Source of the DNA: Lentilactobacillus farraginis DSM 18382 = JCM 14108
GTDB taxonomy: Bacteria; Bacillota; Bacilli; Lactobacillales; Lactobacillaceae
NCBI RefSeq assembly: GCF_000583655.1
Contig: NZ_BAKI01000021.1
Coordinates: forward strand, 1 to 40,458
Length of the DNA: 40,458 nucleotides
Reading direction: 5' to 3'
The notes under the pieces are model-generated. The model was not told where the DNA came from, searched no databases, and saw only the letters and a list, made by a program, of their open reading frames with translations. Both the position numbers and the translations under genes were made by a program. Numbering within the stretch: the stretch's first letter is position 1; each line of letters opens with the position of its first letter. Below, piece by piece: positions 513-24,919 of this stretch.

Positions 513-630
513 AGGACTGCTGCGCTACCCCACAAACCTGCATGTAAGGGATTTATTTCAAAAACCCAGAGTCGGGGTTTCCGAAATAAACGCCTTACAC
601 TCCGGTTTATCCCGGGGTAGCTCCGCACAC
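513..630 (+). repeat. nested palindromic repeat, copy R1
   Basis: Begins with AGGACTGCT and ends with CTCCGCACAC. Nested arms pair from outside in: GCTACCCC 524-531 with 614-621, AAACC 534-538 with 604-608, GTAAGG 544-549 with 593-598, TTTATTTC 552-559 with 583-590, AAACCC 562-567 with 575-580. The whole can fold into one long hairpin. A truncated right end of another copy (TTTCGCACAC) lies just before it at about 498-507. No T-tract follows, so it is not a simple terminator. Positions 346-496, before it, show nothing recognisable. Confidence 0.85.
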
Positions 631-636
631 TATCCT

Positions 637-755
637 AGGACTGCTGCGCAAAACACCACCACTCCACATAAGGGATCAAATCGAAAAATCCAAGCCCGGG
701 ATTTCCCGTTTTGACGCCTTATGCTCCGGATGCTAACCGTTTTGCTCCGCACACT
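637..755 (+). repeat. nested palindromic repeat, copy R2
   Basis: Same termini as R1 and directly adjacent, separated by the linker TATCCT. Arms: CATAAGG 667-673 with CCTTATG 717-723, TCAAA 676-680 with TTTGA 710-714, AAATCC 686-691 with GGATTT 699-704. The outer left arm is degenerate compared with R1. Confidence 0.85.
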
Positions 756-760
756 GTTCT

Positions 761-876
761 AGGACTGCTACACAAAGCAACGTTCTGCATATAAGAGATC
801 AATTTGAAAAGCCCAAACCCAGGGCTTCCCAAATTGACGTCTTATACTCCGAACGTTAACCGCTTTGTTTCGCACA
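761..876 (+). repeat. nested palindromic repeat, copy R3, abutting a gene stop
   Basis: Arms: AACGTTC 779-785 with GAACGTT 851-857, ATAAGA 791-796 with TCTTAT 840-845, TCAATTTG 799-806 with CAAATTGA 830-837, AAGCCC 809-814 with GGGCTT 822-827. The right end CGCACACTA provides the TAG stop (complement of 877-879) of the reductase gene on the other strand. Confidence 0.85.
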
Positions 877-1875
877 CTACTTTTTATGCATTGCCGTGCT
901 ATGAAGCGGGCCCCTTCTATCCGGATACAGAGACTGCATCAATGCGTTAACGGCAATTGGGGCTTCCCCAAAGGCTGTCGCAATCAACGGTTCCTTTCCC
1001 TCATACTTGGAAACATCTCCAATTGCGAAAACATTTTCCAAATCCGTCAAACCGCTGGACTGTACCCGAATGGTTCCTCGGTTAACATCAGGATGGACAT
1101 TCCAGGCATTCAATGCGTCGTCTTGGGCAATAAAACCATAATTCACAACAATTTTATCCACTTGAAGTTCAATCATGTCATCGGATTTCATTTTTTTAGC
1201 GCTAACAGCCACCCGGCCTCCGGCAATCGAACTTAACCCCTTAATCAGATATGGGGTCACCGTTTCAATGCTTGAATTTTTCAATTGATCTACGCTGTGC
1301 TCCATCGCCCGAAACTTATCCCGCCGGTGAAGCAGGTAAACTTTCTTGGCAACTTTTTCCAACAGAAGTGCTTCATCAATCGCCGAATCACCGCCACCGG
1401 CTACTAAAACCGTTTGATCTTTGAACTGATCAAGATTTTTCACGCTGTAAAATAAATTATGGCCTTCAAAATCGGCACTGTTGTCAACAGCCAACTTCCG
1501 CGGGTTAAAGGCACCAACTCCGGTCGCAATAATAATTCCCTTTGTTAGGGTGGTCTCCTGATTAGTGGTTATCTGATATCCGGCCGCATTTTTTTGGATA
1601 TCGGTGACCGTTTGGTTCAATTTAACGGCTGTATCGACCGTTCTCAGCTGCCCTTCCAGTTGATTGATTAACTTCCTGGCTTTAATCTCAGGATAGCCGC
1701 CAACGTCCAAAATCGTCTTTTCCGGGTAAAGTGCGCTCACTTGACCACCCAACTCGGACAAACTTTCAATGATTTGAGCCCGGGCGTTTCTGAGGCCGGC
1801 ATAAAAGCCGGCGAATATCCCTGCCGGACCGCCGCCAATAATGGTAATATCATAAATTGAATTTTCTGAAGCCAT
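877..1875 (-). CDS. thioredoxin-reductase-like ferredoxin--NADP(+) reductase (type 2 FNR)
   Basis: A 332-residue flavoprotein. The FAD dinucleotide motif IIGGGPAG is near residue 12, the NADPH motif VLVAGGGDSAIDEA near residue 155, and the C-terminal FAD-binding motif AIGDVSKYEGK near residue 290. The CxxC redox pair of true thioredoxin reductases is absent from the NADPH domain, which places it with the YumC-type ferredoxin/flavodoxin reductases that reduce small electron carriers with NADPH in the cytoplasm. The ATG at 1875 follows an AGGAAGG ribosome site. Length matches the family. The last codons run into repeat R3, whose end supplies the stop codon; whether this trimmed or extended the original C-terminus cannot be seen. 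Confidence 0.9.
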   Translation of the reverse strand: MASENSIYDITIIGGGPAGIFAGFYAGLRNARAQIIESLSELGGQVSALYPEKTILDVGGYPEIKARKLINQLEGQLRTVDTAVKLNQTVTDIQKNAAGYQITTNQETTLTKGIIIATGVGAFNPRKLAVDNSADFEGHNLFYSVKNLDQFKDQTVLVAGGGDSAIDEALLLEKVAKKVYLLHRRDKFRAMEHSVDQLKNSSIETVTPYLIKGLSSIAGGRVAVSAKKMKSDDMIELQVDKIVVNYGFIAQDDALNAWNVHPDVNRGTIRVQSSGLTDLENVFAIGDVSKYEGKEPLIATAFGEAPIAVNALMQSLYPDRRGPLHSTAMHKK

Positions 1876-1931
1876 TTGCTTTCCTTCCTATCCTTAGGTT
1901 GATCGCACTGTCAACCGGTTTTGACGCGTTT

Positions 1932-3045
1932 TTAAGAACGCTTTTTTTGATTTCGTTTTTCCGGCTTTCGCTTTTTGGCTTTCCGAGCTTTAGGAACAAT
2001 AATCCGTTGCCCCTGCAATGTTTTCACCTCACGAAGGCCGGCGTCAATCATTATATATATTAAGAACCAACCCACAATCACGTCAAGGATTTCCTGCATA
2101 ATTGACACGTTCAAACCTGTATTGGGAATATCCCAATCCCAAAACGTGTGCAGCATAACGGCAATTAAAAAGAAAACGTAGAATTTAGGCTTTGTAAAAA
2201 AATCATGAATTGTAAACGGCCGCTTGCGGGCTTTTCCCAAAATAATGGCGCCACCCATGATGCAGCCCAAATTGTGTGCGTGCCAATTGCCTGAAAGCTC
2301 CTGGTAAAAATCGTCATCAAACCGTACTGACTCACGTACCCCGAACTTTCAAAGACTGAAAAACCGGCACCAACCGCCGCCCCTATCAGACACCGTTAAA
2401 TATGTAATTCAGCTTATATGAATTGATGAACAAAATGACAACGATACACTTAGCCAGTTCCTCAACAATTCCCACGATCAAAGCTGATTCAATACTGACA
2501 TCGGTCCGAATCGGCAGCATCAAATAAAACGTCATCGTCACCAGCAGCGACAAGATCCCGCCCACCAAAAAAGTGGTTAGGACTTGAAGAACAGAGATAT
2601 TTTGATAAACGTTGATTTCAAAGAACATCATCATTAGCGAAAACGGTACGGCCAGCGATCCGATAAAAATCAAACCCGGAATTGCCTTGTTGCTTTGAAA
2701 CAAAAACAACAGCAGCATCAGCATGGCAAAGCTGACTGTCAAAACCAAAAAAATTCTGGAGAAAAACCACGGTTTGACCGGTCGACTGGAGACTTTTTTC
2801 AAGCTGGGAGTGGTTGCCCGGGTCCCGACAATAAAGAGTCGATCGGCCTCATCCTTGCTATGGCGGCGGAACACTTCGGAAAACATCCGCGATAAATGAA
2901 TTTCTACCGGATCATCCTGACTTTGTTCGCTAAGCCGTTTGGCAATACTATCATCTAAATTATCAAAATTATCATAATTTCGCCGGACACCTGTCCAAAT
3001 CAACGAGAAAAAATGCCGACCTAAATTTTTACTTTCAAGTTTCAA
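1932..3045 (-). pseudogene. PrsW-family intramembrane metalloprotease, two frame breaks
   Basis: Two pieces (2386-3045 and 1932-2270) belong to one gene. The first has a soluble N-terminus, then several membrane segments and the PrsW/CAAX-type motif VEELAK near residue 198, ending at NGV and a TGA. Shifting frame near 2390 restores GAAVGAGFSVFESSGYVSQYG, the expected following segment, and a second shift near 2265 restores HTIWAA(I)MGGAIILGKARKRPF with the conserved histidine. Each break is repaired by adding one base (CTG for TG, and AATC for ATC). PrsW proteins cleave membrane-bound regulators such as anti-sigma factors; here the product would be lost unless the breaks are sequence errors. 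The N-terminal start (TTG at 3045) is also uncertain. A basic tail follows the last membrane segment. Confidence 0.75.
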
Positions 3046-3190
3046 AAATCATCATTCCCTAGAAGTATTACTCTTTAGCGTAACTTACAAGGTCATTAGA
3101 TTCAAGTCACCAAACCTGTTAACCGATTTTTCGATTATTATCCTACCAACCTGATTTACCAATCAAAATTCTCAAAATTTTAATCAAAAA

Positions 3191-3219
3191 TTGAGTTATT
3201 AACCATTTTCGGTTATCAT
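3191..3219 (+). promoter_or_regulatory. sigma-A-type promoter for the nucleoside hydrolase
   Basis: TTGAGT at 3191-3196 and TATCAT at 3214-3219 are separated by 17 bases, 51 bases before the start codon. Seen directly; activity is inferred. Confidence 0.5.
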
Positions 3220-3270
3220 TAGGTAAAGGGTTTTCATTCTTGATATTACAACATTATGGAGGTAGTTTTA

Positions 3271-4227
3271 ATGGCCCAGAAAAAAATGATTCTTGATCTT
3301 GATACCGGTATTGACGACGCTATGGCAATTGCCTACGCGGTCGCTGATCCGGATGTCGATTTAATTGGCATCATCGGTTCATATGGTAACGTCTACGTTG
3401 AAGACGGCGTTCAAAATTCACTTAAAATTCTTGAATTGCTTGGTGCCACCGACGTCCCGGTTTATCAAGGACTGGCTCATTCATCAGAAAGCGACCACTT
3501 CGATCGAATGCCCGTCAGTGCTCAAATTCACGGTGAAAACGGGATTGGCGATGTCGATCTGCCAACACCTGCCAGAAAACCGGAAACCGGTGATGCCATT
3601 GATTTCTTCATCGATGCCGTTAAAAAGTACGGTAAGGACTTAATCCTGGTGCCAACCGGCCCGCTCACCAATCTGGACGCCGCAATCAAAAAAGCGCCGG
3701 AAATCGCCGACGAAATCGGTAACGTTACCTTAATGGGTGGCGCGGTAACCGTTCCGGGCAACGTCACTAACGTCGCTGAAGCCAATATCCAACAAGACGC
3801 TTCAGCCGCCAACAATGTCTTTCGAAAAGTTCCCCTAACCCAGGTTGGTTTGGACGTTACCTTAAGAACGTTGTTGACTAAAAAAGAAACTCAGCAATGG
3901 CGTGATTTAGGTACCAAATCCGGCCGGGCTTTCGCGGATATTGTCGATTACTATATCAAAGCTTACGAAGTAACCAGCCCCGACCTGCATGGCTGTGCGC
4001 TGCATGATCCATTTGCGGTTGGTGTTGCGATCAATCCGGACTTTGTTTCGACCATCAGCTTAAACATGTATGTCACAACTGACGAAAAGTATTACGGGCG
4101 AACCACCGGTGATCCTGCCCGACTCTCAGATCCAAATCCAAACGTTAAAGTAGCCGTTAATGCGGATGTCGACGCCTACTTAAAGGCCTTTATGTCCCAT
4201 CTAACAGGGTTATTCCAACAAAACTAA
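3271..4227 (+). CDS. ribonucleoside hydrolase (inosine-uridine preferring family)
   Basis: 318 residues. The calcium-binding motif LDLDTGIDDAMA at residues 7-18 is the signature of the IunH/Rih family, which hydrolyses the N-glycosidic bond of ribonucleosides to base and ribose in the cytoplasm. The glycine-rich LMGGAV segment near residue 155 and the C-terminal catalytic histidine in HDPFAVG near residue 245 are present. The start is taken at ATG 3271, because the GGAGG at 3258-3262 is a ribosome site; the upstream ATG 3256 overlaps it. It has its own promoter and is monocistronic, ending in front of a long palindrome. It could serve nucleoside salvage with the 5'-nucleotidase at 8265. Substrate preference cannot be read from sequence. 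Confidence 0.9.
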   Translation: MAQKKMILDLDTGIDDAMAIAYAVADPDVDLIGIIGSYGNVYVEDGVQNSLKILELLGATDVPVYQGLAHSSESDHFDRMPVSAQIHGENGIGDVDLPTPARKPETGDAIDFFIDAVKKYGKDLILVPTGPLTNLDAAIKKAPEIADEIGNVTLMGGAVTVPGNVTNVAEANIQQDASAANNVFRKVPLTQVGLDVTLRTLLTKKETQQWRDLGTKSGRAFADIVDYYIKAYEVTSPDLHGCALHDPFAVGVAINPDFVSTISLNMYVTTDEKYYGRTTGDPARLSDPNPNVKVAVNADVDAYLKAFMSHLTGLFQQN

Positions 4228-4254
4228 TCGTCTAATAATAATCTTCAAAATCAT

Positions 4255-4328
4255 AAATGACACAATTTAATGTATTTCAACACTGCCATTACCGGCATAA
4301 ATTGAAATACAGCTAAATTGTGTCATTT
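4255..4328. repeat. 74-bp perfect nested palindrome between convergent genes
   Basis: AAATGACACAATTTA 4255-4269 pairs exactly with 4314-4328, GTATTTCAA 4272-4280 exactly with 4302-4310, and GCC 4285-4287 with GGC 4294-4296. It lies between two convergent genes (stops at 4227 and 4371). Position suggests a bidirectional terminator, but there is no clean T-run and the stem is AT-rich. It is unrelated in sequence to the R1-R10 family and may be a small mobile palindrome. Confidence 0.75.
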
Positions 4329-4370
4329 ACTTTATTAATCATTATTAAATTAATGCCGACATTTATGAGC

Positions 4371-5180
4371 CTACCGAATCGAAAAAAAACTCTTCAAGTA
4401 GTTACCGACACCGTCATCATCATTGTTGCCGGCGATCGCACTGCTGATTGCCCGGATTTCTTCCGTACCATTCTCCATTGCGACACCCAATTGCGCGTGA
4501 ACCAGCATTCCCAGATCATTTTGAGAATCACCGAATGCCATTAGATTTGAAAAATTCCAACCAAAGTGTTTCAACAGTGCTTTCAAACCGACCGTTTTAT
4601 CCATCTTGGGCGCCAAGAACTCCATAATTTGCGGTTGTGAACGGACAATGTGATATCTGCGGGCAAGCTTTGCGGGAATATCCTTACTGAAATTATCCAG
4701 CAAACTCGGGTTATCACACACGATTCCCTTGGAATACAGCTTATCTGTTCCAAGATTGGCGAAAGTACTTGAAGTAAACTTAATATTGCCTTTAAACTGC
4801 TCCTGATACTTTGATTTTTTTAAATCCGAAATCGAATAAACCTGCTCAAAATCCAAAAGATCAAGCGGCGCGTAAACCTCATCGGCAAACCGATATAACG
4901 GCTCAAAATCCGTTTTGGCCATTCCTGACTTAAATAATTCGGCTTTATCGGCATTATGAACAACCAACGCGCCGTTAAATGTAATTGTATAATCATTTTC
5001 GGTTGTCAGGCCCAATTGTTTAATATACGGCCAAATGGCGTTGATTGGCCGCCCCGTGCACAAGACCACTTTAATACCGTCCTGATGAATTTGTTTCAAT
5101 ATTTTTTCATTCTTTTTGGAAATGGTCTTGTCACTCGTTAACAGTGTCCCGTCCAAATCCAATGCAACCATCTTAATCAC
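4371..5180 (-). CDS. Cof-type HAD-superfamily sugar-phosphate phosphatase
   Basis: 269 residues. Motif I LDLDGTLL (catalytic Asp pair) is near residue 7, motif II around VVLCTGR near residue 40, and motif IV GDSQNDLGML near residue 218. A cap domain sits between them, as in the Cof/YidA subfamily (IIB cap). Members dephosphorylate small phosphorylated metabolites in the cytoplasm; the substrate is not predictable. The GTG at 5180 is chosen because an AGAGGGGG ribosome site lies about nine bases upstream; an in-frame ATG at 5171 is too far away. The gene is convergent with the nucleoside hydrolase and faces the 74-bp palindrome. Confidence 0.9.
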   Translation of the reverse strand: MIKMVALDLDGTLLTSDKTISKKNEKILKQIHQDGIKVVLCTGRPINAIWPYIKQLGLTTENDYTITFNGALVVHNADKAELFKSGMAKTDFEPLYRFADEVYAPLDLLDFEQVYSISDLKKSKYQEQFKGNIKFTSSTFANLGTDKLYSKGIVCDNPSLLDNFSKDIPAKLARRYHIVRSQPQIMEFLAPKMDKTVGLKALLKHFGWNFSNLMAFGDSQNDLGMLVHAQLGVAMENGTEEIRAISSAIAGNNDDDGVGNYLKSFFSIR

Positions 5181-5349
5181 TGATAGTGTCCCCCTCTGTT
5201 GATTATAAAATCATTCATAATAAGTAAATGATCTAAAAAATCCTTTTGATTATATCTTACAAAGAACTTTTTAAAATTACTAGATTTAGTTACACAATTG
5301 TTCCGGATAAATTTGTAAAGAATGCGATTCCAACCTTAATTTCACAAGC

Positions 5350-5385
5350 AAAAAAGAAGCCGGTGTACTTAAATACCCCGGCTTC
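5350..5385 (-). terminator. intrinsic terminator of the Spx-like gene
   Basis: On the minus strand GAAGCCGG and GGTA pair with TACACCGGCTTC and are followed by a run of six T. It lies 35 bases beyond the stop of the gene at 5420. Confidence 0.85.
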
Positions 5386-5419
5386 CGGATTTATCCGTAT
5401 AACTCAAATGTTATTTTGA

Positions 5420-5815
5420 TTAACTAATTTGCGATTCAAGTTCCCGAAGTTCCGCTTCACGCACACTGCGCGGCAGGAATCTTCTGATTTCTTCTTCATT
5501 AAAACCAACCTCAAGTCGATGGTCGTCAAAAATGATTGGTCGTTTAATCAAGTCCGGGTACTTAACCAATAAATCAATTAGTTGAGATACCGAAAGATTA
5601 TCAATATCCAAATTCAACTTCTTATAGATATTGGACCTTGTAGAAATGATGTCTTCGCTACCATTTTCGGTTAAACGCAGGATTTGTTTTACCTCATCGG
5701 CATTTAGAGGGTTGGAATTAATATTCCGTTCCTTAAAAGCAATGTTGTGGCCTTTCAACCATGCACGTGCTTTTCTGCTCGATGCACTACTCTGTGCGAC
5801 ATATAGATTTAACAT
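5420..5815 (-). CDS. Spx/ArsC-family regulator lacking the CxxC redox switch
   Basis: 131 residues, the usual Spx length. The start is ATG 5815, after an AGGGGGG ribosome site. The Spx fold is clear: SRKARAWL at 13-20, LTENGSEDIISTR at 48-60 with the conserved Gly52 that contacts the RNA polymerase alpha C-terminal domain, and RPIIFDDHRLEVGFNEEEIRRFLPR from residue 92, including Arg92. The redox cysteines Cys10 and Cys13 of Bacillus Spx are both serine here (SSASS), and the protein has no cysteine at all. It should therefore bind RNA polymerase but not sense thiol oxidation, acting constitutively or in another stress. It is monocistronic with a good terminator. Lactobacilli commonly carry several Spx paralogues. 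Confidence 0.9.
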   Translation of the reverse strand: MLNLYVAQSSASSRKARAWLKGHNIAFKERNINSNPLNADEVKQILRLTENGSEDIISTRSNIYKKLNLDIDNLSVSQLIDLLVKYPDLIKRPIIFDDHRLEVGFNEEEIRRFLPRSVREAELRELESQIS

Positions 5816-6004
5816 TACAATCCCCCCTAGTTTGTAACAGAAATGAAACTGAAATACATCCTTCACGTAATATATTAGCACAGTGAAACATTTTGTCAAT
5901 ACCATTACTTACTTTTTGTAAATGAATTTGTGAATTTTACAGACGTGCAACTTACTAAATTTTCGTTATAATAAAACCATTCCAAATATATCGGGGGATT
6001 TTTT

Positions 6005-7971
6005 ATGGACGCTTTTTATCTGGTCGCACTTTTAATTGTCGCAACCATCGTTTCCAATATGATTTACACTGTTTTTCCAAAAATACCACTGACTTTTTAT
6101 CAAATTGGCTGCGGTTTTCTACTAACGCTGCTACCAATTTTCAGAAATTATTCACTTTATCCTGAATTTTTCATGGTGGGGATTATCGCGCCGTTAATGT
6201 TTAATGACGGTCGCAATACCAACGTTTCCCATCTGGGACATGCCTTCGGTCTGGTTATCTCCATGGCTGTTTATCTGGCTATCTTCACCGCAACTGCCAT
6301 TGGTATCTTCGCCCATACGATGATGACGTTAATTCCTTTAAGCCTGTGTTTCGCGCTGGCCGCGATTGTCACGCCAACCGACTCATTGGCATTTTCATCC
6401 ATTACCGAAAATGTCCAGCTGCCGGAAAACGTCGCCGGTACCTTGGAAAGCGAGTCACTCTTCAATGATGCTTCCGGAATCGTTGTGTTTAACTTGGCCT
6501 TATCATCCTTTTTGACCGGGCAATTTTCATTTTCAAAGGGACTCGTTAACTTTCTCATCAGTTTTTTCGGCGGCCTTTTAATCGGTCTGATTGCCGGATT
6601 GATTTTTGTTAAACTGCAAACCTTTTTAGTCAACAAATCCATGGATACAACCAGCGTTATCGTCCCATTTAGTTTGATGACCCCATTCGCGATTTACCTG
6701 CTTTCCGAGCATTTGGGATGTTCCGGTATTCTGGCGGTTGTCGCTGCCGGTATCGTATATGGGTTGAATCAAAGTCGGCTAAAACTGACAACCACCAATG
6801 TCCGCCTGGTCACCGGCGCTACTTGGGCTATTGTCAGCAACCTCCTTAACGGCATCGTTTTCGTTTTACTTGGTGTGACGCTGCCCACCGTTATTTCAAA
6901 TATCATACCACTATCAACCACACTGATACTCGAACTCGGCGGTTTAGCCCTGGCAATTTATTTGTTAATGGGGTTGATTCGGTTTTGCTGGGCCAAATTT
7001 AATTTCGTTAAACTTCATCGTAAGAAGCACCCAGCCTAAAAGAAGCTTTTCTGATCGCCATTGGCGGCGTTCACGGCACCATCACGCTCTCAATGGCGCT
7101 TTCACTGCCATTAAGCTTTTCGGGACATGCCTTTCCCTATCGAAATCAGCTTATCTTTGTCGCAGCAATCGTCATTTTATTGAGTTTAATTGTTCCGGCA
7201 TTGATTCTGCCACAAATTCTGCCAACAAAAACCAATGGTGACCAGGCTTCCTTTAACCACTATCGGACTGAAATGGTTAATTACAGTATCGCCAAAATCA
7301 AGGCGCAGGAAAGTATCCCCCTAGCTGACAGAAACTACGTCATTGACATGCTGGCAAGTCAAAAACAGGGTCAAAATGCCGATAAAGAACAAATAAATAC
7401 CATCTTGAACCAGACACGGAAAGTTGAAATCGATGCCATTACCAACCTGCTGGCAGCCGGAAAAATCCCCCAAAGCGTTGCCAACCGAATTTCCCGCAGA
7501 ATGGTGATGACACCGGACAGGCGCGGTAGTTTCCTAACCAAATTACGCTTTTTGTTTCGCGTTCGCTTCCCAAGCCGCAAGACCAGACGGATAAAACGCA
7601 ACGTTCAATCAGTTGCCGACAGGTTCGATCCTGATTTAAATTCAAAATTAGCCGAACAGAAAAAAGCCGTTCGAAAATTACTGGAAGAAACAATCTACAA
7701 ACAAGTTAACGCTTATCTGGACGATATCGAAACCGGAGAAAACACCACCGCTGTTGCATTTGTCAGAAACGGTTATAATTTTCGACATGCCAGACTCGAT
7801 ACTAACGATAATTCGGACGATTTAAGAAACCAATTGTTAATCCAGGCCTTTCAGTACGAATACTCCTACGTGGCAACCGCCTTCAAAAATCAACAAATCT
7901 CTCGTAGCCTTTCAGATCAGCTGAATCAAAGCATAACCACCGATCAGATGTTTTATATGGAGCAAGAGTGA
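6005..7971 (+). pseudogene. CPA1-family Na+/H+ antiporter, single frameshift
   Basis: The first reading frame (6005-7039) covers about 10 membrane segments, with the ion-site motif ESLFNDASGIVVF near residue 150 and the first-half features of NhaP/NhaK-type exchangers of the cytoplasmic membrane. It ends at KKHPA. Adding one base near 7035 joins it to the frame open to 7971, giving KKHPSLKEAFLIAIGGVHG and TITLSMALSLP, a conserved CPA1 segment, then two more membrane helices and a roughly 230-residue basic cytoplasmic domain. The repaired protein would be about 655 residues. The break lies in a run of C. The frame-2 piece has no ribosome site, so it is not a separate gene. The stop TGA overlaps the start of repeat R4 (gTGAggactgct). 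Confidence 0.85.
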
Positions 7972-8071
7972 GGACTGCTCCACATAAGGGACCAAATCGA
8001 AAAATCCAAGCCCGGGATTTCCCGCTTTGGCGCCTTATGCTCCGGGTGCTACCCGTTTTGCTCCGCACACT
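7971..8071 (+). repeat. nested palindromic repeat, copy R4
   Basis: Starts with AGGACTGCT inside the antiporter stop codon and ends CTCCGCACAC. CATAAGG 7983-7989 pairs with CCTTATG 8033-8039, and the inner arm ACCAAATCG pairs with CGCTTTGG. Compared with R2 (ATCAAATCG with CGTTTTGA), a T-A pair is replaced by C-G, a compensatory change. The outer left arm is missing. Confidence 0.85.
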
Positions 8072-8076
8072 ATCCT

Positions 8077-8193
8077 AGGACCGCTACACAAAGCAACGTT
8101 CTGCATATAAGGGATCGGTTCAAAAAATCCAAACCCGGGATTTCCCGAACCGACGCCTTATACTCCGAGCGTTAACCGCTTTGTTTCGCGCAC
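8077..8193 (+). repeat. nested palindromic repeat, copy R5
   Basis: Tandem with R4 through the linker TATCCT. ATAAGG pairs with CCTTAT, TCGGTTC with GAACCGA, and AAATCC with GGATTT. The TCGGTTC arm differs from R1-R4, yet its partner differs in step. The end reads TTTCGCGCAC, and the promoter of the next gene starts eight bases later. Confidence 0.85.
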
Positions 8194-8201
8194 TATCCTT
8201 G

Positions 8202-8230
8202 TTTACAAAGTGCTGTCAATTGATTATACT
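8202..8230 (+). promoter_or_regulatory. sigma-A-type promoter for the 5'-nucleotidase
   Basis: TTTACA at 8202-8207 and TATACT at 8225-8230 with 17 bases between them, 35 bases before the start codon and immediately after repeat R5. Confidence 0.55.
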
Positions 8231-8264
8231 TGACGGTATACATTGTGTTTGCAGGTGAAAAATA

Positions 8265-12609: not shown

Positions 12610-12708
12610 GCGTAAATTACCCACCATTAATACTTTAATTATTTTATGACCTACTTATTGTACGCCATGTTGGTTGATGAATGCTAGTCGGGTTGTTTAA
12701 TTGTTCTT

Positions 12709-12825
12709 AGGACAGCTACGCTAATCATAAACCTGCTTGTAAGGGATAAATCTTAAAAATCCAAGCCCGGGATTTCCCGCATCAATGTCTCATACTCCGG
12801 ATGCTAACCGCTTGGGCGCACACAC
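12709..12825 (+). repeat. nested palindromic repeat, copy R6 (degenerate)
   Basis: Begins AGGACAGCTACGC and ends GGGCGCACAC. The AAATCC/GGATTT tip and the CTCCGGATGCTAACCGCTT right side match R2 and R3, but the GTAAGG arm no longer pairs with CTCATA. It lies between the hydrolase and the XRE regulator, close to the latter's TATAAT at 12841-12846. Confidence 0.75.
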
Positions 12826-12875
12826 TTATACAAATTGCAGTATAATAATAAGTAACGAATAGGACGGTGATAATC

Positions 12876-16841: not shown

Positions 16842-16886
16842 AAAAGCAGGCAACCGACAAAAAAATCTGCCGATCGCTGCTTTTTT
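16842..16886. terminator. bidirectional intrinsic terminator
   Basis: AAAAGCAG at the left pairs with CTGCTTTTTT at the right, with inner GGCA/TGCC. It lies between the convergent DsrE and HAD genes. Confidence 0.75.
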
Positions 16887-16893
16887 AAATTTC

Positions 16894-17550: not shown

Positions 17551-17614
17551 TAATTTTTCTCACTTTCGTATAAGTCTGTATTTCCCTATCTTACCGGGAA
17601 TGCCAAAAAATGCA

Positions 17615-17675
17615 AGCGCAAAAAATCGGGCAGCCAATTTGGTCACCCGATTTTTGAATACTTATTTTTTGCGCT
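17615..17675 (-). terminator. nested terminator at the end of the arc locus
   Basis: AGCGCAAAAAA 17615-17625 pairs exactly with TTTTTTGCGCT 17665-17675. Inside, AAAATCGGG pairs with CCCGATTTTT. On the minus strand the inner stem is followed by six T. It directly follows the arcD stop. Confidence 0.85.
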
Positions 17676-19103
17676 TTAAAAAGTAATCTTACCGACAATC
17701 AAGCCATAAATGGTATAGATGGCCGCAATGACAATCAGAATAGCAACTGCCATTTCAATTGGGCCAAATACTTTATCTGCCTTATTATCACGCTTCTGCA
17801 AAATCCAATAAACCGGAATCCCGGCCGCAAACAACAACGACATCAGAAGCAGAAAATTACTACCAGCTGCGAATAACAACCAGCAGGCATAGATGCTTGA
17901 AATAATTCCAATTGTTACGTTTCTCGTTCGACCACTGGTGTGATCCTCATTAACCGAGTATTTTAATTGATAAAACGCTGAGAACGCATACGGAATCAAA
18001 ATAGCCGCACTGGCAATCGAATAAAAGAAGTTATAAGCCGAAGCTGTGATCAAATAACTGAACATAAACAGCTCCACACAGACATTGGTTACCGTCAAAG
18101 ATGTTACCGGCGCACCGTTTTTATTTTCTTTGGCAAACAATTTGGGGAACGTCCCCTCCTTGGCAGCCTCATAAGGCAGCTGACCGGCAAACATTGTCCA
18201 TGACAGCCAGGCGCCAACAACTGAAATAATCAAGCCGAGGTTAACAACCATCGACCCCCATTTACCAACCAGGCTTTCCAGCAAGTCGGCCATCGCGGGT
18301 TGGCTTAAATGTGATAGTCCGGCTCTGCTCATAACGCCAAATGACAATAACGTTACCAACATATAGATCAAAATAACCGTAATGATTCCGAGAACCGTTG
18401 CTTTACCAACATCGGAACGTTTTCGAGCCCGACCGGAAAAGACGACCGCACCTTCAATACCAATAAACACCCAAACTGTTACCAGCATCGTACTTTTAGC
18501 CTGTTTCATGACATCCCCAAACTGGAAATTGCCACTCGGCGTGAACCAGAAGTCACTGGTAAACATATTCAACTTAAAGGCAAACAACACAATAATCAAG
18601 AACAGAAAAATCGGAATTAACTTGGCAATTGTAATAATTGTATTCACAAACGAAGCTGATTCAATTCCTCGTAAAATCATAAAGTGACAAGCCCACAAAA
18701 TAACCGACGCCGCTAAGATGGACCAAATATTTTGACCATCACCAAAAATTGGCAGGAAATATGCCACCGCACTCATCAACAGCGTCGCATAGCCGACGTT
18801 GCCCAGCCATGCGGACAGCCAGTATCCCCAAGCAGAGTTAAAGCCCATGTACTTGCCAAATCCCGCTTCGGCATAACTGTAAACACCGGCATCCAAATCC
18901 GGTCGCTTCATCGTTAAATTTTGAAAGGTTAAGGCCAACATGACCATTCCAATTGCGGTAATAACCCAGCCGATAATAATCGCACCGGCGCCGGCGCCAA
19001 CCGCCATATCATGCATTAACTTAAAGACGCCACCGCCGATAATCGAACCAACAACCAGGCCGATCAACTCGAGCAATCCCAACTTACCATCATGCTCTTT
19101 CAT
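17676..19103 (-). CDS. arcD: arginine/ornithine antiporter, APC family
   Basis: 475 residues with about 12-13 membrane helices. LELIGLVVGSIIGGGVF at the N-terminus is the APC-superfamily substrate motif (GSIIGGGVF) in helix 1, and VWVFIGIEGAVVFSGRARKRSDVGKAT near 230 is the conserved region before loop 6 of basic amino acid/polyamine antiporters. Its place as last gene of arcA-arcB-arcC-arcR-arcD makes arginine-in, ornithine-out exchange the likely role. ATG 19103 follows GGGAG with good spacing; the frame open to 19124 overlaps that site. The gene ends at a strong terminator and is separated from arcR by a remnant of the palindromic repeat. Confidence 0.9.
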   Translation of the reverse strand: MKEHDGKLGLLELIGLVVGSIIGGGVFKLMHDMAVGAGAGAIIIGWVITAIGMVMLALTFQNLTMKRPDLDAGVYSYAEAGFGKYMGFNSAWGYWLSAWLGNVGYATLLMSAVAYFLPIFGDGQNIWSILAASVILWACHFMILRGIESASFVNTIITIAKLIPIFLFLIIVLFAFKLNMFTSDFWFTPSGNFQFGDVMKQAKSTMLVTVWVFIGIEGAVVFSGRARKRSDVGKATVLGIITVILIYMLVTLLSFGVMSRAGLSHLSQPAMADLLESLVGKWGSMVVNLGLIISVVGAWLSWTMFAGQLPYEAAKEGTFPKLFAKENKNGAPVTSLTVTNVCVELFMFSYLITASAYNFFYSIASAAILIPYAFSAFYQLKYSVNEDHTSGRTRNVTIGIISSIYACWLLFAAGSNFLLLMSLLFAAGIPVYWILQKRDNKADKVFGPIEMAVAILIVIAAIYTIYGLIVGKITF

Positions 19104-19203
19104 CGCTGTCACTCCCTTACGCAAATAATTTTTAATTCTTCCCCTTGGTACTGATATAATTGCAAAACCGGTGCAGTTGGCGATAGCAGTAGGTGAGTTT
19201 TGG

Positions 19204-19253
19204 TGTTAACCGCTTTGCTCCGCACACTTTCTTAGGACTGCTAGTTTCGCGCA
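19204..19253 (+). repeat. deletion remnants of the palindromic repeat, R7
   Basis: 19204-19230 matches the right end of R2/R3 (TGTTAACCGCTTTGCTCCGC then ACAC). After a short linker, AGGACTGCT at 19234 is joined directly to TTTCGCGCAC, that is, left end to right end with the whole stem lost. The last part lies inside the arcR coding end. Confidence 0.7.
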
Positions 19254-19933
19254 CTAAAAATTTTAAAATACTTGCGGCTATACTGAATCTTTCCTTCCGC
19301 AACCAGCTGCTGCACCATCAGACTGGTTGTTTCCCTGGTCGTTCCGCTTACCTTGGACAACTCGATTAGTGTCATGGGGTATGGAATCACGACCGTGCCA
19401 TCTTCCTGCTCATCACCGATTTGCTGACCCAGAAACCAAATTGCATTTTGAACCCGACACTTTGCACTTGTCGTTACCATTCGCTGCAACTGCGTCTCCG
19501 TTGTGTTAATAATCGAACTCATTTCACGAATCGCATTCACCATCATCTCGGGATTGGCCCGCAACAAGTCTTCATAAAGTTTCATGGGAATAATGGCAAT
19601 TTTAACCGCCGTCATTGTTTCCACGCTATAAGCATAATCTTCATCTTCAAACAGACCGATGTATGGAAACGCTTTGTTGGCTCGAATATAGAGGTAGAGC
19701 TGTTCATCCCCGTTTTCGTCTAAATGAAACGATTTGGCAACGCCACTAATTAAGAAGTAATAGTTTCGCCGTGGATCTCCCTGGTCAAACAAAACCTGCC
19801 CTCTATGAAAAGATTTAATTGTAGCCGCTGAAATAATTCGGTCCAAATCGTCATTATCAAGCGGGCTGAACTCTGGGTGAAGCCGCATTTTTGACCGATA
19901 CAGTTGGTAATCACCTTTATTGTTTAATATCAT
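19241..19933 (-). CDS. arcR: Crp/Fnr-family regulator of the ADI pathway
   Basis: 230 residues. The N-terminal cyclic-nucleotide-binding-like beta-roll (FHRGQVLFDQGDPRRNYYFLISGVAKSF at about 42-69) is followed by a long dimer helix. A winged helix-turn-helix, with MTLIELSKVSGTTRETTSLMVQQL near 191-214, ends the protein. The position inside the arc cluster between arcC and arcD identifies it as the ArcR-type activator; its ligand is unknown. No cysteine cluster of oxygen-sensing FNR is visible. The last codons (SARN and stop TAG) come from repeat R7, so the natural C-terminus may have been altered. ATG 19933 is preceded by TGGAG. Confidence 0.85.
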   Translation of the reverse strand: MILNNKGDYQLYRSKMRLHPEFSPLDNDDLDRIISAATIKSFHRGQVLFDQGDPRRNYYFLISGVAKSFHLDENGDEQLYLYIRANKAFPYIGLFEDEDYAYSVETMTAVKIAIIPMKLYEDLLRANPEMMVNAIREMSSIINTTETQLQRMVTTSAKCRVQNAIWFLGQQIGDEQEDGTVVIPYPMTLIELSKVSGTTRETTSLMVQQLVAEGKIQYSRKYFKIFSARN

Positions 19934-20059
19934 TATTTTTCCACTCCAAAAATGGTTAGATAATTAACTCGTCAATAAAAGTGTACCGCAATTGAAGGTT
20001 TTGTACATCAAACGAATCGACAACCCCGCTTTAAATTCAGACAGCTCAACTTTTTCCAA

Positions 20060-21016
20060 TTAGTTTCGGATTCCGACTTTTTCAGTAATCACCGTTCCGG
20101 AGCCATTTTGAACGAACCCTTCAATATTATCCAGAGCTGTCACCACTGCTTGGTTACCGGTAGCCTTGACAAAATCAATCGCAGCTTCAACTTTTGGCAG
20201 CATACTGCCGGGCGCAAACTGGTTTTGGCCAATATAAGTTTCCAACTCGGCTACCGACACCTGTTCGAGCTTCTTTTGATCAGGCTGGTTGAAGTTTACG
20301 TAGATATTTGGTACTGCCGTTAAAATGATTAAGGCATCGGCACCCACCAACTCAGCCAATTTTTCGCTGGCAAAATCCTTATCAATAACTGCTTCCCGAC
20401 CAAGCAGCTGATTGCCGTTTGAAACAACCGGAATGCCACCACCACCAACTGAGATTGGAACAATGCCAGCGTCAACCAATGATTTCACTGCATCTGTCTC
20501 AACAACTCCGATTGGTTTAGGTGACGGGACAACCCGCCGATAGCCGCGACCGGCATCTTCCACAAAGGTAAAGTCCGGATTTTCCTTCTTGGCCAAATCC
20601 GCCTCGGCCTTTGACATAAAGGGTCCAATTGGCTTAGTTGGCTTTTCAAAGGCCGGATCGTCAGCACTGACTTCCACTTGGGTAACGACCGTCGCAACCG
20701 TCTTTTTAATCCCTTTTTCTTTCAATACCCGATTCATAGCGTTCTGCATCCAATAACCGATGCTGCCCTGGGTCATTGCCACGGCAGTATCCAGCGGCAT
20801 GGCCGGATTGTCTTCGGTACTGCCGGCAGCCTGTTGTAATAACAAGTTACCGACTTGCGGACCGTTACCATGTGAAATGATTAATTGATCCCCGTTCTCA
20901 ATAAATTTCACTAACTGTTCAGCTGTTTCCAACAATGCTTTCTGTTGCGCTGCGGCTGACGCATCCTTTGAAAGAATAGCATTTCCACCAAGTGCGACTA
21001 CAATTTTACGTCCCAT
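20060..21016 (-). CDS. arcC: carbamate kinase
   Basis: 318 residues. It makes ATP from carbamoyl phosphate and ADP, the energy-yielding step of the ADI pathway. VALGGNAIL at residues 6-14, [19 protein letters not shown] near 46-64, [10 protein letters not shown] near 165 and the [10 protein letters not shown] stretch near 190 are the amino-acid-kinase signatures, and [15 protein letters not shown] near 235 is the nucleotide region. Length is typical. ATG 21016 has AGGAGGGA upstream. It follows arcB after a hairpin terminator that would let only part of the transcript through. Confidence 0.95.
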
Positions 21017-21052
21017 GGTCGTTCCCTCCTGTTTTGAATATAGGTTTTTAAA

Positions 21053-21098
21053 AACGAAGGGTCGGGGACAGACTATTAATGTTTGTCGCCGACCCTCA
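21053..21098 (-). terminator. terminator or attenuator between arcB and arcC
   Basis: On the minus strand AGGGTCGGCGACA pairs with TGTCCCCGACCCT, followed by TCGTTTTTAAAA. It probably reduces arcC-arcR-arcD expression relative to arcA-arcB. Confidence 0.7.
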
Positions 21099-21139
21099 CT
21101 TTCTTTGGTTTACTGAGTATTCAGTTTTTTAAGTTAAGC

Positions 21140-22171
21140 TTAAACTCTTGGAATAAACAGATTCCCCAGCGTTGCGGCCATCATGGCTTTAATTGAGTGC
21201 ATTCTGTTTTCCGCTTCTTCAAATTGACGGGCGTATTTGCTGGTAAAGACTTCATCAGTTACTTCCATCTCTTTGATACCATATTTTTCTTCTACTTCTT
21301 TACCATAAGTTGTCTCGGTATTGTGGAAGGCCGGCAGGCAGTGCATGAAAATTAATTGGTCTTCAGGCGTGCCTGTTTTCTTCATAGCCGCCATGTTTAC
21401 CTGGTAAGGCGTTAATTCCTTAACTCGTTCTTCCCAGTTGCTTTCACCCATGGATACCCAGACATCGGTATAAACAATGTTGGAACCTTTGAGTCCTTCA
21501 TCCAAATCATCAGTAACCAATAATTTGGCACCTGATTTTTCAGCAAAGCCCTTTGCAATACTTTGGGTCTCTTCCGTTGGGAACAATGCCTTTGGCGCTA
21601 CAATATGAACATTGACACCCAAGATTGCGCCGGTTACCAATAACGAGTTGGCAACGTTATTCCGACCGTCACCCATGAAAGTCAGGGTTAAGCCTTGCAG
21701 TTTGCCAAAGTTTTCCTTAACCGTCATAAAGTCAGCCAACATTTGAGTTGGATGCCACTCATCAGTTAACCCGTTCCAAACCGGCACGCCACTGTCACGA
21801 GCCAGGATTTCCGCATCACTTTGCTTGAACCCTCGGAACTCAATACCATCAAACATACTGCCAAGCACTTTAGCAGTGTCTGAAGTCGTTTCCTTCTTAC
21901 CTAATTGAATGTCATTTTGACCAAGGTATTCCGGATGGGCACCCAAATCGATTGCGGCCGTTGTAAAGGCTGAACGAGTCCGGGTTGATGACTTTTCAAA
22001 TAACAGGGCGATATTCTTTCCTTCCAAATAATGGTGTGGAATTCCCGCCTTCTTCAAAGTTTTCAGATGTAAACCAAAATCAATTAAATATTCCAACTCT
22101 GCAGCGGAAAAATCTTTTTCAGCAAGGACACTGCGACCTTGAAATACGTTTTGTCTAAAATCTTTTGTCAT
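21140..22171 (-). CDS. arcB: ornithine carbamoyltransferase, catabolic
   Basis: 343 residues. It phosphorolyses citrulline to ornithine and carbamoyl phosphate. The carbamoyl-phosphate loop [12 protein letters not shown] is near residue 54, HPTQMLADF near 135, [10 protein letters not shown] near 160, and the ornithine/citrulline loop FMHCLPAFH near 272. ATG 22171 ([10 protein letters not shown]) is chosen because GAGGAG lies eight bases before it; the frame is open upstream to 22288 through repeat R8 but without a ribosome site. The gap to arcA is filled by that repeat. It is second in the arc cluster. Confidence 0.95.
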
Positions 22172-22220
22172 ATCGAATTCTCCTCGTGATGTGATTTTTT
22201 GGGTACTAATTTTTGTTTTG

Positions 22221-22290
22221 AGGACTGCTGCTCTTAGGGCTGCCCATAAACGCCTTACACTCCGGTTTATCCCGGGGTAGCTCCGCACAC
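22221..22290 (+). repeat. palindromic repeat with left arm deleted, R8
   Basis: Keeps AGGACTGCT at its left end and a right half from ATAAACGCCTTACACTCC to CTCCGCACAC that equals R1 base for base over about 45 bases. The stem cannot form. It fills the arcA-arcB gap and its last C with TA makes the arcA TAG stop. Confidence 0.8.
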
Positions 22291-23531
22291 TATTTCTTTA
22301 AATCCTCGCGGACAATTGGGCAGCTCATGCAACGTGGACCCCCACGGCCCCGGGACAACTCGCTTGAAATAACCTCGAGTACTTTCAAGCCGTGTTTTCT
22401 TAATAATTCGTTGGAGACATAGTTTCGGTTATAAGTGACAACCACTCCCGGTGCAATCGCCAGTGTGTTGGAACCATCATTCCATTGTTCACGGCCGGCA
22501 ATAATCGGATCGCCGTTACCGGTTGGAATCAAGTCAAGATCGTCCAAATGAAGCGCAGCCTTTAAAACTTTCTTCAAATCGGTATCATGCTGCAGGTTCA
22601 ATTCGCCTTTATTTTGACCCGGTGTAATTGTCCAAGTATCAATTTGACCACCCTTACCCAGGATTCCCGGATGAACCGTGAATTGGTCATAATTAATCAT
22701 TGTAAAGACTGTGTCCAAATGCATCATTGCGTGGTTATGCGGAATTTTAATGGCAATTACCGTGTCGTATTGACCATGCGCAAATAAATTCTTGGCAATG
22801 TCTTGGATGGCATCAGCTGAGGTTCGTTGTGAAACACCGATTGCCATAACGTGGTCGTTTAAGACCAGCTCATCGCCACCTTCAATTCTGGTTGTGTGAT
22901 TCCGATCACGCCAAACGTGAACACCCTGATTGGCAAAGCGGGGATGGTATTTAATAATCGTTTCATTAAATAATGACTCACGCTGTCGGGCAGGATACGT
23001 CATATGATTAATACTCAACCCATCACCAATGCATGCCGAAGGGTCACGCGTAAAGTAAAGGTTGGGCATCGGATCCATATAGAATTCGTAGTCCTGATTT
23101 TCGGCACAGCTTACAAGGTCCTTAGGTACAAAATCAAGTTCGTTCTTTCGAACACCTGCCATAATTTTAACAACCATATCCTGGTTGCTCATGCTGCCGA
23201 GATATTCTTTCAATGCATCGTGAATTGTTCCCGAAGCATATCCGGATTCAGTTAGCATCTGTTCCAGGAAATGATCTCTGACTTCTTCACCACCGGCATC
23301 CAAAGCTTCTGCTGATAATTTTTCCAGATACAAGACTTCAACACCATTATCGCGAAGTGTATCTGCAAAATAATCATGCTCCTTTTGCGCAATTGGCAAA
23401 TATGGAATGTCATCGAATAGTAACCGCGGCATCATTTCAGGTGTAAAGTTTTCAATTTCCCTACCGGGGCGTTTCAACAATACAGTCTTTAACTTACCGA
23501 TTTCTGAGTAGTTATGAATTGGACTTGTCAT
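22290..23531 (-). CDS. arcA: arginine deiminase
   Basis: 413 residues. It converts arginine to citrulline and ammonia. Guanidino-modifying-enzyme features: [12 protein letters not shown] near 167, [10 protein letters not shown] near 220, HLDTVFTM near 275, and the nucleophile cysteine in [16 protein letters not shown] near 400. The usual text at that point is CMSMP; the extra cysteine (CMSC) is a small oddity. ATG 23531 ([12 protein letters not shown]) follows a TGGAGG ribosome site, and the frame above it is that site. First gene of the cluster, behind a 670-base regulatory region. Its TAG stop is formed by the end of repeat R8. Confidence 0.95.
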
Positions 23532-23582
23532 TTGTGTAACCTCCATTCTTCCCTTGAATACATCCCTTATGATAGACCGTTT

Positions 23583-23596
23583 TGAAAACGCTATCG
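23583..23596. promoter_or_regulatory. cre-like site (CcpA operator) near arcA start
   Basis: TGAAAACGCTATCG matches the consensus TGWNANCGNTNWCA except for the final base. About 50 bases before the arcA start codon, so it would act as a roadblock or overlap the promoter. Confidence 0.5.
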
Positions 23597-23710
23597 TGTG
23601 TTTTTGTTCATCAAAAAATGTCGATTTTCTAGCAAAATTAGCATAGTATTTTTCGGTTTTGAATAATATTTATTATTTAATTAAATATTTGCTGTTCAAC
23701 TTAGCTAATA

Positions 23711-23724
23711 TGGATTTTTATTCA
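23711..23724. promoter_or_regulatory. ARG-box-like site (ArgR operator)
   Basis: TGGATTTTTATTCA matches TGAATWWWWATTCA except for one base. argR lies on the same strand upstream. Confidence 0.5.
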
Positions 23725-23918
23725 TTTAAAAATGTTTAAATTAAAAAATAAAAATTTGATTAAAATCAATATATCCCTATAATATCACACTTTCTTCACA
23801 ATGTTCATAATTTCTTCTAATTTAAAACAGAATAAATATTTTTTAATTCACAAAATATTCATCTATTCTTCAAAGAAAATACATCTATTTTTGATAAAGG
23901 ATCGTTTTTTAGGCGAAA

Positions 23919-23932
23919 TGTAAGCGGTTACT
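23919..23932. promoter_or_regulatory. second cre-like site
   Basis: TGTAAGCGGTTACT matches TGWNANCGNTNWCA except for the final base and is close to a palindrome (GTAAGCGGTTAC). Confidence 0.5.
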
Positions 23933-24085
23933 CATAACCACCCCCTTTTCATTTTGGATTTTAATACACTAAAATAGTTATAAAAGAAAAAGAAAACAGG
24001 AAGAATTCGTTTAACTCCCCGTTTATCTTGCTTTTTCCCCCCCATCAGTCAACGATTAGAGGAGAGCTATTTCCAAATCGAAACG

Positions 24086-24198
24086 TGCTCCGCCAACCAT
24101 AAGTCTGCATGTAAGGGGGCTGCCATCAAATCCTCAAAACCAAGGATTCAATGGCAGCCCCCTTACACTCCGACTTATCCCAGGTTGGCTCCGCACTC
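24086..24198. repeat. best-preserved palindromic repeat, R9
   Basis: Arms: CCAACC 24093-24098 with GGTTGG 24183-24188, ATAAGTC 24099-24105 with GACTTAT 24172-24178, the 16-base GTAAGGGGGCTGCCAT 24111-24126 exactly with 24151-24166, and AATCCT 24129-24134 with AGGATT 24143-24148. The arm sequences differ greatly from R1, but TGCATGTAAGG, CCTTACACTCC and CTCCGCAC are shared. The AGGACTGCT left end is absent. It lies just past the argR stop. Confidence 0.85.
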
Positions 24199-24205
24199 TA
24201 TCAAC

Positions 24206-24685
24206 TTAATCCACCGACGAAACCAGCAAATCTGGGTTTGAATGCTTTAAAAATAGATTCTTAATATTTTCCGCGGATTTAACCGATGGACAAAATGTCA
24301 CAATTGTATCGTACCCAGCCAGCGTTCCTGCCACATCATCCATGTGCAGGTCATCTATCACCGCTGCTAATGGGTTGGCATAACTCGGCTGTGTGTGAAT
24401 CACATTAATAAATTCAATCTGTCGAACCTCGGTGACCGTGCCATTAATCATGCGATACATTCGTTCCAATTCATTTTGATTTCCCGACTTGAAAATCATA
24501 TATCTGGAATTTCCCGAGCTATCAGGCTGCTTAACAATCTGCATTTCCCGAATATCCCGTGAAAGGGTAGCTTGTGTGACGTTGATTCCGGATAACTTTA
24601 GTTTTTCCATCAACTCTTCCTGAGTCGTAATCGTATATTGATTAATAATTTGTTCAATTTTAGCCTGCCGCACATCTTTTTTCAT
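24206..24685 (-). CDS. argR: arginine repressor family regulator
   Basis: 159 residues. The N-terminal winged helix (QAKIEQIINQYTITTQEELMEKL, then VTQATLSRDIREM at 37-49) is the ArgR DNA-binding domain. The C-terminal trimerisation and arginine-binding domain follows, with HMDDVAGTLAGYDTIVTFCPS near 122. It binds ARG boxes in response to arginine. The usual GDDT of the arginine site is GYDT here, so effector binding may differ. AGGAAGG precedes ATG 24685. As first gene before arcA on the same strand, and with an ARG-box-like site in between, it probably controls the ADI genes; lactobacilli often have more than one ArgR-type protein. Confidence 0.9.
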   Translation of the reverse strand: MKKDVRQAKIEQIINQYTITTQEELMEKLKLSGINVTQATLSRDIREMQIVKQPDSSGNSRYMIFKSGNQNELERMYRMINGTVTEVRQIEFINVIHTQPSYANPLAAVIDDLHMDDVAGTLAGYDTIVTFCPSVKSAENIKNLFLKHSNPDLLVSSVD

Positions 24686-24801
24686 ATGTCGTTACCTTCC
24701 TATTCGAAACAAGTTGCTTAAATATCCATAAACTCTCAATTTAACTGCATAACTACATCATAACAAATCATAATACAAAGTGGCCGATTTGACCATAGAA
24801 A

Positions 24802-24919
24802 GTGTGCGGAGTAAAACGGTTAACACCCGAAATATAAGACGTCGATTTGGGAAATCCTGGGTTTGGATTTTTCAAATCGATCTCTTATATGCAGCGGTGT
24901 TGTTTTACGGAGCAGTCCT
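24802..24919 (-). repeat. nested palindromic repeat in reverse orientation, R10
   Basis: Starts GTGTGCGGAG and ends AGCAGTCCT, the reverse complement of the other copies. ATAAGACGTCGATTTG on the left pairs with CAAATCGATCTCTTAT on the right with one bulge, and AAATCC with GGATTT. A further end fragment (GAAAGTGTGC) lies at 24921-24930, just after the phosphorylase stop. Confidence 0.8.

Follow-up and report, generated by a model that had tools for sequence, protein, structure and literature searches.

Repeats dispersed along a 40,458-nucleotide stretch of Lentilactobacillus farraginis DSM 18382 = JCM 14108 (contig NZ_BAKI01000021.1, which is contig C109 of the 2.84 Mb, 129-contig draft of this host; hereafter the window) carry hairpin stems that change in a concerted manner from copy to copy. 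This covariation is genuine, reaches far past the window and fits selection on the fold. The reading that we favor, at a probability of roughly 0.55, is that the repeats constitute a dispersed family of ~120-nt structured RNAs, which would form hairpins in 3' untranslated regions (3' UTRs) and between cistrons, drift in stem sequence under the constraint of pairing, and act either as targets of RNase III or as blocks to exonucleases. The strand that would be functional, termed sense below, is the reverse complement of the one read in an initial annotation of this DNA, which we call the annotated strand.

Covariation of the stems

An alignment of 70 units from the host, with 37 base pairs, was compared with shuffles. 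Paired states occupy 93.3% of its cells as against 79.5% in the shuffles, two-sided changes number 385 as against 111.5, and the covariation score is 0.380 as against 0.133, a value reached by none of 500 shuffles. The number of further pair types was unexceptional in this host set, 57 of 500 shuffles being as high. When the structure was slid by 1–3 columns only 24–43% of cells remained paired. Normalized mutual information (mutual information over entropy) was 0.74 for partner columns (20 pairs) and dropped to 0.245 for columns 1–4 bases apart and to 0.10–0.17 for those more than 10 apart; hence the pairing signal is not explained by linkage over distance. A second alignment, A3, comprised the sense strand of 36 chosen units from several genera of three families, and in it two-sided changes were seen in 34 of 38 pairs, 90.6% of cells were paired (63.2% when shuffled) and 112 further pair types were present against 93 in shuffles, none of 500 being as high. 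The 70 host units and alignment A3 were the respective bases of covariance models R1 and R2, used in the searches below.

The initial annotation had attributed the paired changes either to selection on the fold or to a mechanism that rewrites both arms. The excess of two-sided changes fits the former, whereas the copying of one arm onto the other is disfavored by the tolerance of G-U pairs and the energy of the sense strand. The covariance search and count of compensatory changes that it had proposed thus turned up an excess, together with matches in 18 of 24 genomes of the same genus.

The strand that folds

On the annotated strand of the 70 host units, A·C combinations outnumber G·T combinations 61 to 12. 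Across 30 pairs in all 156 pooled units, the corresponding counts were 49:18 for the host, 58:17 for G006, another Lentilactobacillus genome, and 64:44 for the remaining Lentilactobacillus units. Leaving out the 30 units with more than five non-Watson-Crick cells, the other 126 of the 156 yielded 82:10, or 59:9 after collapsing identical contexts (p 4e-10). The A·C combinations of the annotated strand are G-U wobbles on the sense strand. A one-way deamination bias is disfavored as the source of this asymmetry, as sense G-U pairs adjoin G-C states (30) and A-T states (29) about equally.

Folding without any alignment pointed the same way. The minimum free energy was lower for the sense strand in all 77 host units, all 36 units of G006, 42 of 43 units from other Lentilactobacillus and 61 of 62 from G071, a single-contig genome of another genus, the mean advantage across these four sets being 8.8–12.8 kcal/mol. 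The sense strand also has more G-U pairs in 77/77, 36/36, 38/43 and 59/62 units of the same sets. In two further sets from other genera and families, both picked by the models, the sense energy was lower in 6 of 9 and 14 of 15 units. Taken together, the tolerance of G-U pairs and the lower energy favor the strand opposite to that of the initial annotation, and favor RNA, over a DNA mechanism that merely copies arms.

Predicted structure

The sense strand reads 5'-AGNGYGCGGAGC...CGGUUAG...CCGGAGU...AUGCAG...GGAGCA-3', and the unit is predicted to fold into one long rod. In this model a 3-bp foot leads into a helix of ~7 bp; a bulge of 4 nt, conserved as GGUU or GUUU, separates this from a second helix, beyond which the rod continues through a conserved asymmetric internal loop into a long, freely varying inner helix closed by a small apical loop. 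The ends of the unit pair over 3 bp only, ahead of a 3x3 loop and a helix of 7–8 bp. Conservation is concentrated in the unpaired or non-canonical parts, namely the bulge, the asymmetric loop, the apical loop and the G-U pairs, while the helices vary freely; this is the pattern of a structured RNA that is read by its loops.

Placement relative to genes

In a first, rough test with open reading frames (ORFs), a co-oriented ORF ended within 300 nt upstream, in the sense direction, of 31 of 46 host arrays, 29 of these within 18 nt; 4 of 50 host places had no upstream ORF. A stricter ORF set covered 44 host arrays (9 at edges were left out) and 27 of G006, of which 62 in all were classified. Where the upstream ORF is co-oriented, the sense 5' end lies no more than 10 nt from its stop in 16 of 22 arrays of the host and in 13 of 17 of G006. 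The mirror case, in which the sense 3' end is near a convergent stop, was found in 3 of 13 and 1 of 12, respectively (Fisher p 7e-6 for the summed counts). Of the 62 classified arrays 29, roughly half, start at the stop codon of a co-oriented gene, and 13 of these 29 abut it at -2, with the first bases of the element, AG, completing a TAG stop. Co-directional genes flank 25 of the 62 on both sides. Arrays that begin at co-oriented stop codons would be carried in the mRNA as 3'-UTR or intercistronic hairpins.

Copies within the window

All eight copies listed by the initial annotation (R1–R6, R9 and R10) are where it had placed them. The family members of the window are as follows, the strand being that of the sense sequence; the higher sense-strand scores of model R2 are those of a model itself built on the sense strand.

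495..508, minus: beginning of a further, partial unit (14 bases), where array a03 ends on the sense 3' side
511..631, minus: unit R1, full hairpin, last whole unit of array a03 in the sense direction and its first along the annotated strand; model R2 gives 103 bits on minus, 36 on plus
635..755, minus: unit R2, full hairpin; 111 bits on minus, 21 on plus
759..878, minus: unit R3, full hairpin, whose leading two bases on the sense strand complete the TAG stop of the pyridine-nucleotide oxidoreductase ORF 877-1875 (minus); 125 bits on minus, 38 on plus
7971..8071, minus: unit R4, lacking part of its outer arm; it follows immediately on the stop of ORF 7093-7971 (plus), to which it is antisense
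8075..8194, minus: unit R5, full hairpin
12707..12826, minus: unit R6, decayed, with poor arm pairing
19202..19228, minus: partial unit start behind ORF 19241-19933 (minus)
22219..22291, minus: internally deleted unit that supplies the stop of arcA (22290-23546, minus); model R2 E 0.068
24085..24199, minus: unit R9, second terminal type, 6 bases after the stop of argR (24206-24685, minus)
24801..24921, plus: unit R10, full hairpin, in the orientation opposite to the other window units
24924..24936, plus: beginning of a partial unit, adjoining unit R10 on its sense 3' side

The partial copy at 19202-19228 and the internally deleted one at 22219-22291 are additional to the eight. The latter has arcA on one side and, on the other, an ORF for ornithine carbamoyltransferase given as 21140-22288 (minus); the carbamoyltransferase profile begins only at residue 49-53, so that the deleted unit probably precedes the true start. 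Short partial copies flank most arrays. On the annotated strand, six of the eight units fold with z-scores of -3.2 to -12.2 against dinucleotide shuffles. The fold of unit R4, from whose left outer arm ~18 bases are missing, is weaker (z -1.65); unit R6, whose arms have decayed, is without a fold (z +0.77), though model R2 still assigns it 61 bits.

Some details of the initial annotation needed adjustment. The shared ends that it had described, AGGACTGCT...CGCACAC, are not those of unit R9, which has GAAACGTGCTCC...CCGCACTCT instead; likewise, its fixed block GTAAGG/CCTTAC is present, but as one state among several, ATAAGG and ATAAGA occurring too. The differing inner arms that it had pointed out are there, including the change of T-A to C-G on both arms between units R2 and R4.

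Copy number and arrays in the host

DNA queries against the host draft with units R2, R1 and R9 gave 65, 51 and 23 matches, respectively. Pooling the loci and iterating a profile raised this to at least 108 unit matches, of which 78 are near full length, at 50 places; model R1 gave 125 matches at E 0.01, opposite-strand shadows counted, with a few places outside the 108. Whole units measure ~113–122 nt. At 35 of the 50 places they form head-to-tail arrays of 2–5 units or parts, with a period of ~124 bases and gaps of mostly 2–5 bases. These copy numbers are lower bounds because contigs C60, C84, C92 and C116 end inside arrays; long or identical arrays were probably collapsed or broken by assembly. 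No unit pair within an array exceeds 95% identity (0/47), from which we claim nothing since a draft assembly can collapse identical units.

Local alignment detected a partial unit start past the last whole unit, in the sense direction, in 31 of 43 host arrays and 21 of 27 in G006; 25 of the 31 host ends measure 12–48 nt, 12 of these falling at 26–31. Terminal bases are more alike within arrays (0.893) than between them (0.851; 0 of 1000 shuffles as high), and for the inner arms the values are 0.690 within and 0.714 between (46 of 1000 shuffles as low), a difference to which the same caution about collapsed units applies. The units are mosaics in which outer, middle and inner stem types combine, the two arms of a stem travelling together; judged by eye, the arms fail to match in 3 of the 70 host units, which resemble hybrids. 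Variant units, namely tandem half units at ~84 bases and units with a ~30-base insert in one arm, were seen at L127:1629-1933, L129:1216-1369 and L134:1349-1497.

Distribution across genomes and plasmids

At E 0.001, model R1 matched the 18 genomes of the genus mentioned above, of which three hold at least 150 candidates. At this threshold it found nothing in G002, G009, G011, G018, G021 and G023; one match in G018 was recovered by model R2. A search of named genomes with the junction pattern returned 15 stretches, all of Lentilactobacillus (hilgardii, raoultii, rapi, fungorum and parabuchneri), from which near-host records may be excluded. G006, which is 84% identical to the host at arcA, allowed a comparison by place. 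For 20 host places both flanks were found in 1.2 Mb of G006, and the profile detected a unit or part of one in ten and none in the other ten; N runs interrupt two of the 20 in G006, and three scored as empty (a04, a07 and a14) show related remnants by eye. These places are too diverged for exact insertion junctions, and with them any target-site duplications, to be located. Seven reciprocal-best unit pairs between the two genomes exceed 0.80 identity, with only one, the C99 unit, at the same place in both, so that no fixed-place statistics were drawn from them.

At the level of the bacterial family, model R1 at E 1e-6 matched 78 of 301 genomes in 17 of 40 genera, and G071 had 137 matches at E 1e-5. 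A near-identical unit is found in a mobile copper operon on plasmids of many genera (77 plasmid records), between the genes for a CopY/TcrY repressor and a copper-type P-ATPase (L270:935-3116), and a unit of the G071 type on 15 plasmids of Lacticaseibacillus and Pediococcus. Unit R10 had no match in phages, and a phage origin is therefore rejected; it had none in plasmids either, though other subfamilies occur there. Model R2 extended the family further, to 103 of 395 order-level genomes at E 1e-4 (33 of 80 genera, seven families). At the level of the class it matched 16 of 398 genomes at E 1e-5, and 13 of these belong to other orders. Both searches used strict filters, at most nine scored candidates per genome and rough E-values without a shuffled-genome control. 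Fifteen units on 12 stretches from 10 of the order- and class-level genomes all have a predicted sense fold with a first helix of 5–8 bp followed by a one-sided bulge of 4–5 nt. As far as searched, the spread was detected only within the Bacilli.

Relationship to known families

No Rfam 15 family reached its gathering score over the window, in keeping with the initial annotation, which could name no described family. The best sub-threshold match was 28.4 of 98 bits over units R1–R3 and, at nine other loci, 34 of 141 bits, and the sub-threshold candidates (microRNA models, SBRMV1_UPD-PKf, tsr26, Ms_IGR-8 and Clostridiales-1) were rejected as lying far below their cut-offs. The weak match to the S. 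aureus small RNA tsr26 (34 bits, cut-off 141, E 0.044) is at L266:2717-2818, away from the unit of that locus. Among the best matches listed from Creative Commons-licensed papers on lactobacilli, enterococci, Bacillus and Firmicutes, none describes the family in lactobacilli.

The resemblance to REP and to miniature inverted-repeat transposable elements (MITEs) suggested by the initial annotation holds in kind, but the units depart from REP in size, orientation and RAYT association. Like REP, BIME and REPIN elements, they are high-copy extragenic palindromes, some of them clustered. However, the REP/BIME palindrome spans 20–40 bp and its clusters alternate in orientation, whereas the present arrays run in one direction; REP/BIME/REPIN go with RAYT, and no dependence on RAYT is seen here. 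MITEs have terminal inverted repeats of 15–30 bp; in the present units 3 bp of end pairing lead through a 3x3 loop into the helix of 7–8 bp. Like the units, integron attC sites are imperfect palindromes that keep their structure and bulges while the stems vary; in contrast, no cassettes lie between the present units, and their strand preference is of the RNA type.

Closer in character are ERIC/IRU, YPAL and Correia/NEMIS, which PMC3733652 and PMC10969869 describe as palindromic, MITE-like repeats of 70–300 bp beside genes that are transcribed and act, or are thought to act, as mRNA hairpins. The present family, compared with them by description only, is likewise palindromic and gene-adjacent, with placement and strand signal suggesting a role as an RNA hairpin; it differs in its 124-base head-to-tail arrays, in stems whose sequence is replaced from copy to copy, in often starting at a stop codon and in a spread confined, as searched, to the Bacilli. 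Also compared by description only are EFAR (Enterococcus faecalis repeats), Efa-1 and Sta-1, which are intergenic, palindromic and from low-GC Firmicutes. EFAR have a modular design. PMC2267715 lists stem-loop repeat families by species, including Efa-1 and Sta-1 (105 bp, 25 copies, a single stem-loop), with L. johnsonii and its genic family Lac-1 as the sole Lactobacillus there. Efa-1, at 163 bp, folds as two hairpins, unlike the single rod of the present units. The bcr1 repeat, according to PMC6542083 and PMC2267715, measures 147–167 bp, has 11–130 copies per strain and a predicted common structure; again by description only, it differs in its reported confinement to the B. cereus group and in its TTTAT motif. 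We accordingly regard the present repeats as a separate new family of a known broad kind (REP/ERIC-like), unusual in covariation, strand signal and placement.

Favored reading and alternative explanations

Under the reading that we favor, the predicted rod, marked by its bulge and loops, would either serve as a binding or cleavage site for an enzyme of double-stranded RNA, RNase III for example, or block 3' exonucleases. In both cases it may determine what becomes of the upstream cistron, in analogy to what PMC3733652 and PMC10969869 report for ERIC and Correia/NEMIS; the stem sequence would be free to drift while pairing holds, and the copies could spread as passive mobile elements. Several observations weigh against it. 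Compensation is not strict, in that 64 pairs of close neighbor units show 52 two-sided against 117 one-sided changes (on the annotated strand 64 A·C, 25 G·T and 28 other). The energy difference between the strands is owed partly to a few invariant positions rather than to independent changes, and the opposite strand folds better in three units of one array in G452 and in one unit of G310. G071 lacks the wobble asymmetry (A·C 42 to G·T 52 in 62 units, after 6 of 68 shorter than 112 letters were dropped; 20:11 in the 51 best when collapsed), and its 41 arrays, from 0.8 of 2.99 Mb, abut stop codons in 3 of 19 cases against 1 of 26 for the mirror arrangement, so that stop-codon placement is not common to that genus. 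A divergent upstream gene precedes 23 of the 62 classified arrays of the host and G006, which means that many are not simple 3' UTRs, and the unit of the copper operon is antisense to that operon.

A selfish element could account for much of the same evidence. If the rod RNA were copied and inserted in the manner of a short interspersed element (SINE), with a putative reverse transcriptase supplied in trans, its fold would reflect the fitness of active copies and not a benefit to host genes. The RNA-strand preference, the exact sense 5' end, contrasting with a partial copy of varying extent at the 3' end, the high copy number, the occurrence on plasmids and the host places where G006 has no detected unit would all suit such an origin, while the partial ends are not uniform in length and the arrays found at the same place in G006 indicate that many are old; we consider it unlikely, if a serious contender. 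More speculative, and also unlikely, is the idea of one ancient RNA rod, recognizable by bulge and loops and not by sequence, that multiplies through the Bacilli as a non-autonomous element copied via RNA and comes to rest at stop codons; there the rod would render it harmless or useful to the host mRNA, much like a SINE in bacteria, with the fold as what is inherited. A DNA-level element, whose single-stranded hairpin is recognized by a transposase or recombinase in the manner of REP/RAYT or attC and whose one arm corrects the other, would suit the swapping of whole nested arms that remain matched and the scarcity of unmatched hybrids. Yet it predicts no strand preference, whereas wobble counts and folding energy favor one strand in Lentilactobacillus, and one-sided intermediates are common between close neighbors. 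The RAYT-like partner that the initial annotation had suggested looking for did not materialize: PF01797 (Y1_Tnp), a profile that covers plain IS200-type transposases too, is present in 7 of 24 same-genus genomes including the host and absent from the element-rich G005, G006, G008 and G016, and RAYT/IS200 is hence rejected as a required partner. We judge a DNA-level element rather improbable.

That the units are transcription terminators or attenuators behind genes is very improbable, despite their location right behind stop codons and a terminator scanner that flags the inner hairpin of units R3 and R10 on the sense strand. The flagged tails, CTCTTATATG, fall inside the rod, the scanner totals are near those of shuffles (1 found against 0.7 expected; 2 against 1.1), and the arrays between co-directional genes include the one separating arcA from the carbamoyltransferase gene. 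With no T-run following any whole unit, as the initial annotation had argued, an intrinsic terminator is rejected. Hardly credible is the notion of ordinary decayed repeats, in which inert MITE copies have inherited their palindromy from a parent element; some copies, such as unit R6, have indeed decayed, but stems that differ between genera while bulge and loops persist are not given by the drift of dead copies.

Other features of the window

Both minus-strand ORFs 24939-26909 and 26959-27267 match Glyco_hydro_65N, suggesting a split glycosyl hydrolase family 65 protein, perhaps because the draft contains a frame break. Positions 35325-35422 and 37798-37895 form a direct repeat of 98 bases (85%), the second copy lying near the end of a cation-ATPase ORF.

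Implications

If the structured-RNA reading is true, lactobacilli would possess an RNA family that exceeds 100 copies in some genomes, has relatives across the Bacilli and is missing from Rfam 15. Its paralogues within one genome would amount to a natural mutagenesis of the features by which a protein or RNase recognizes a long RNA hairpin, pointing to the bulge and loops and not to the stem. The family would likewise offer many natural test sites for hairpins at stop codons that shape bacterial mRNA, and the spread of a repeat without a known transposase would become testable.

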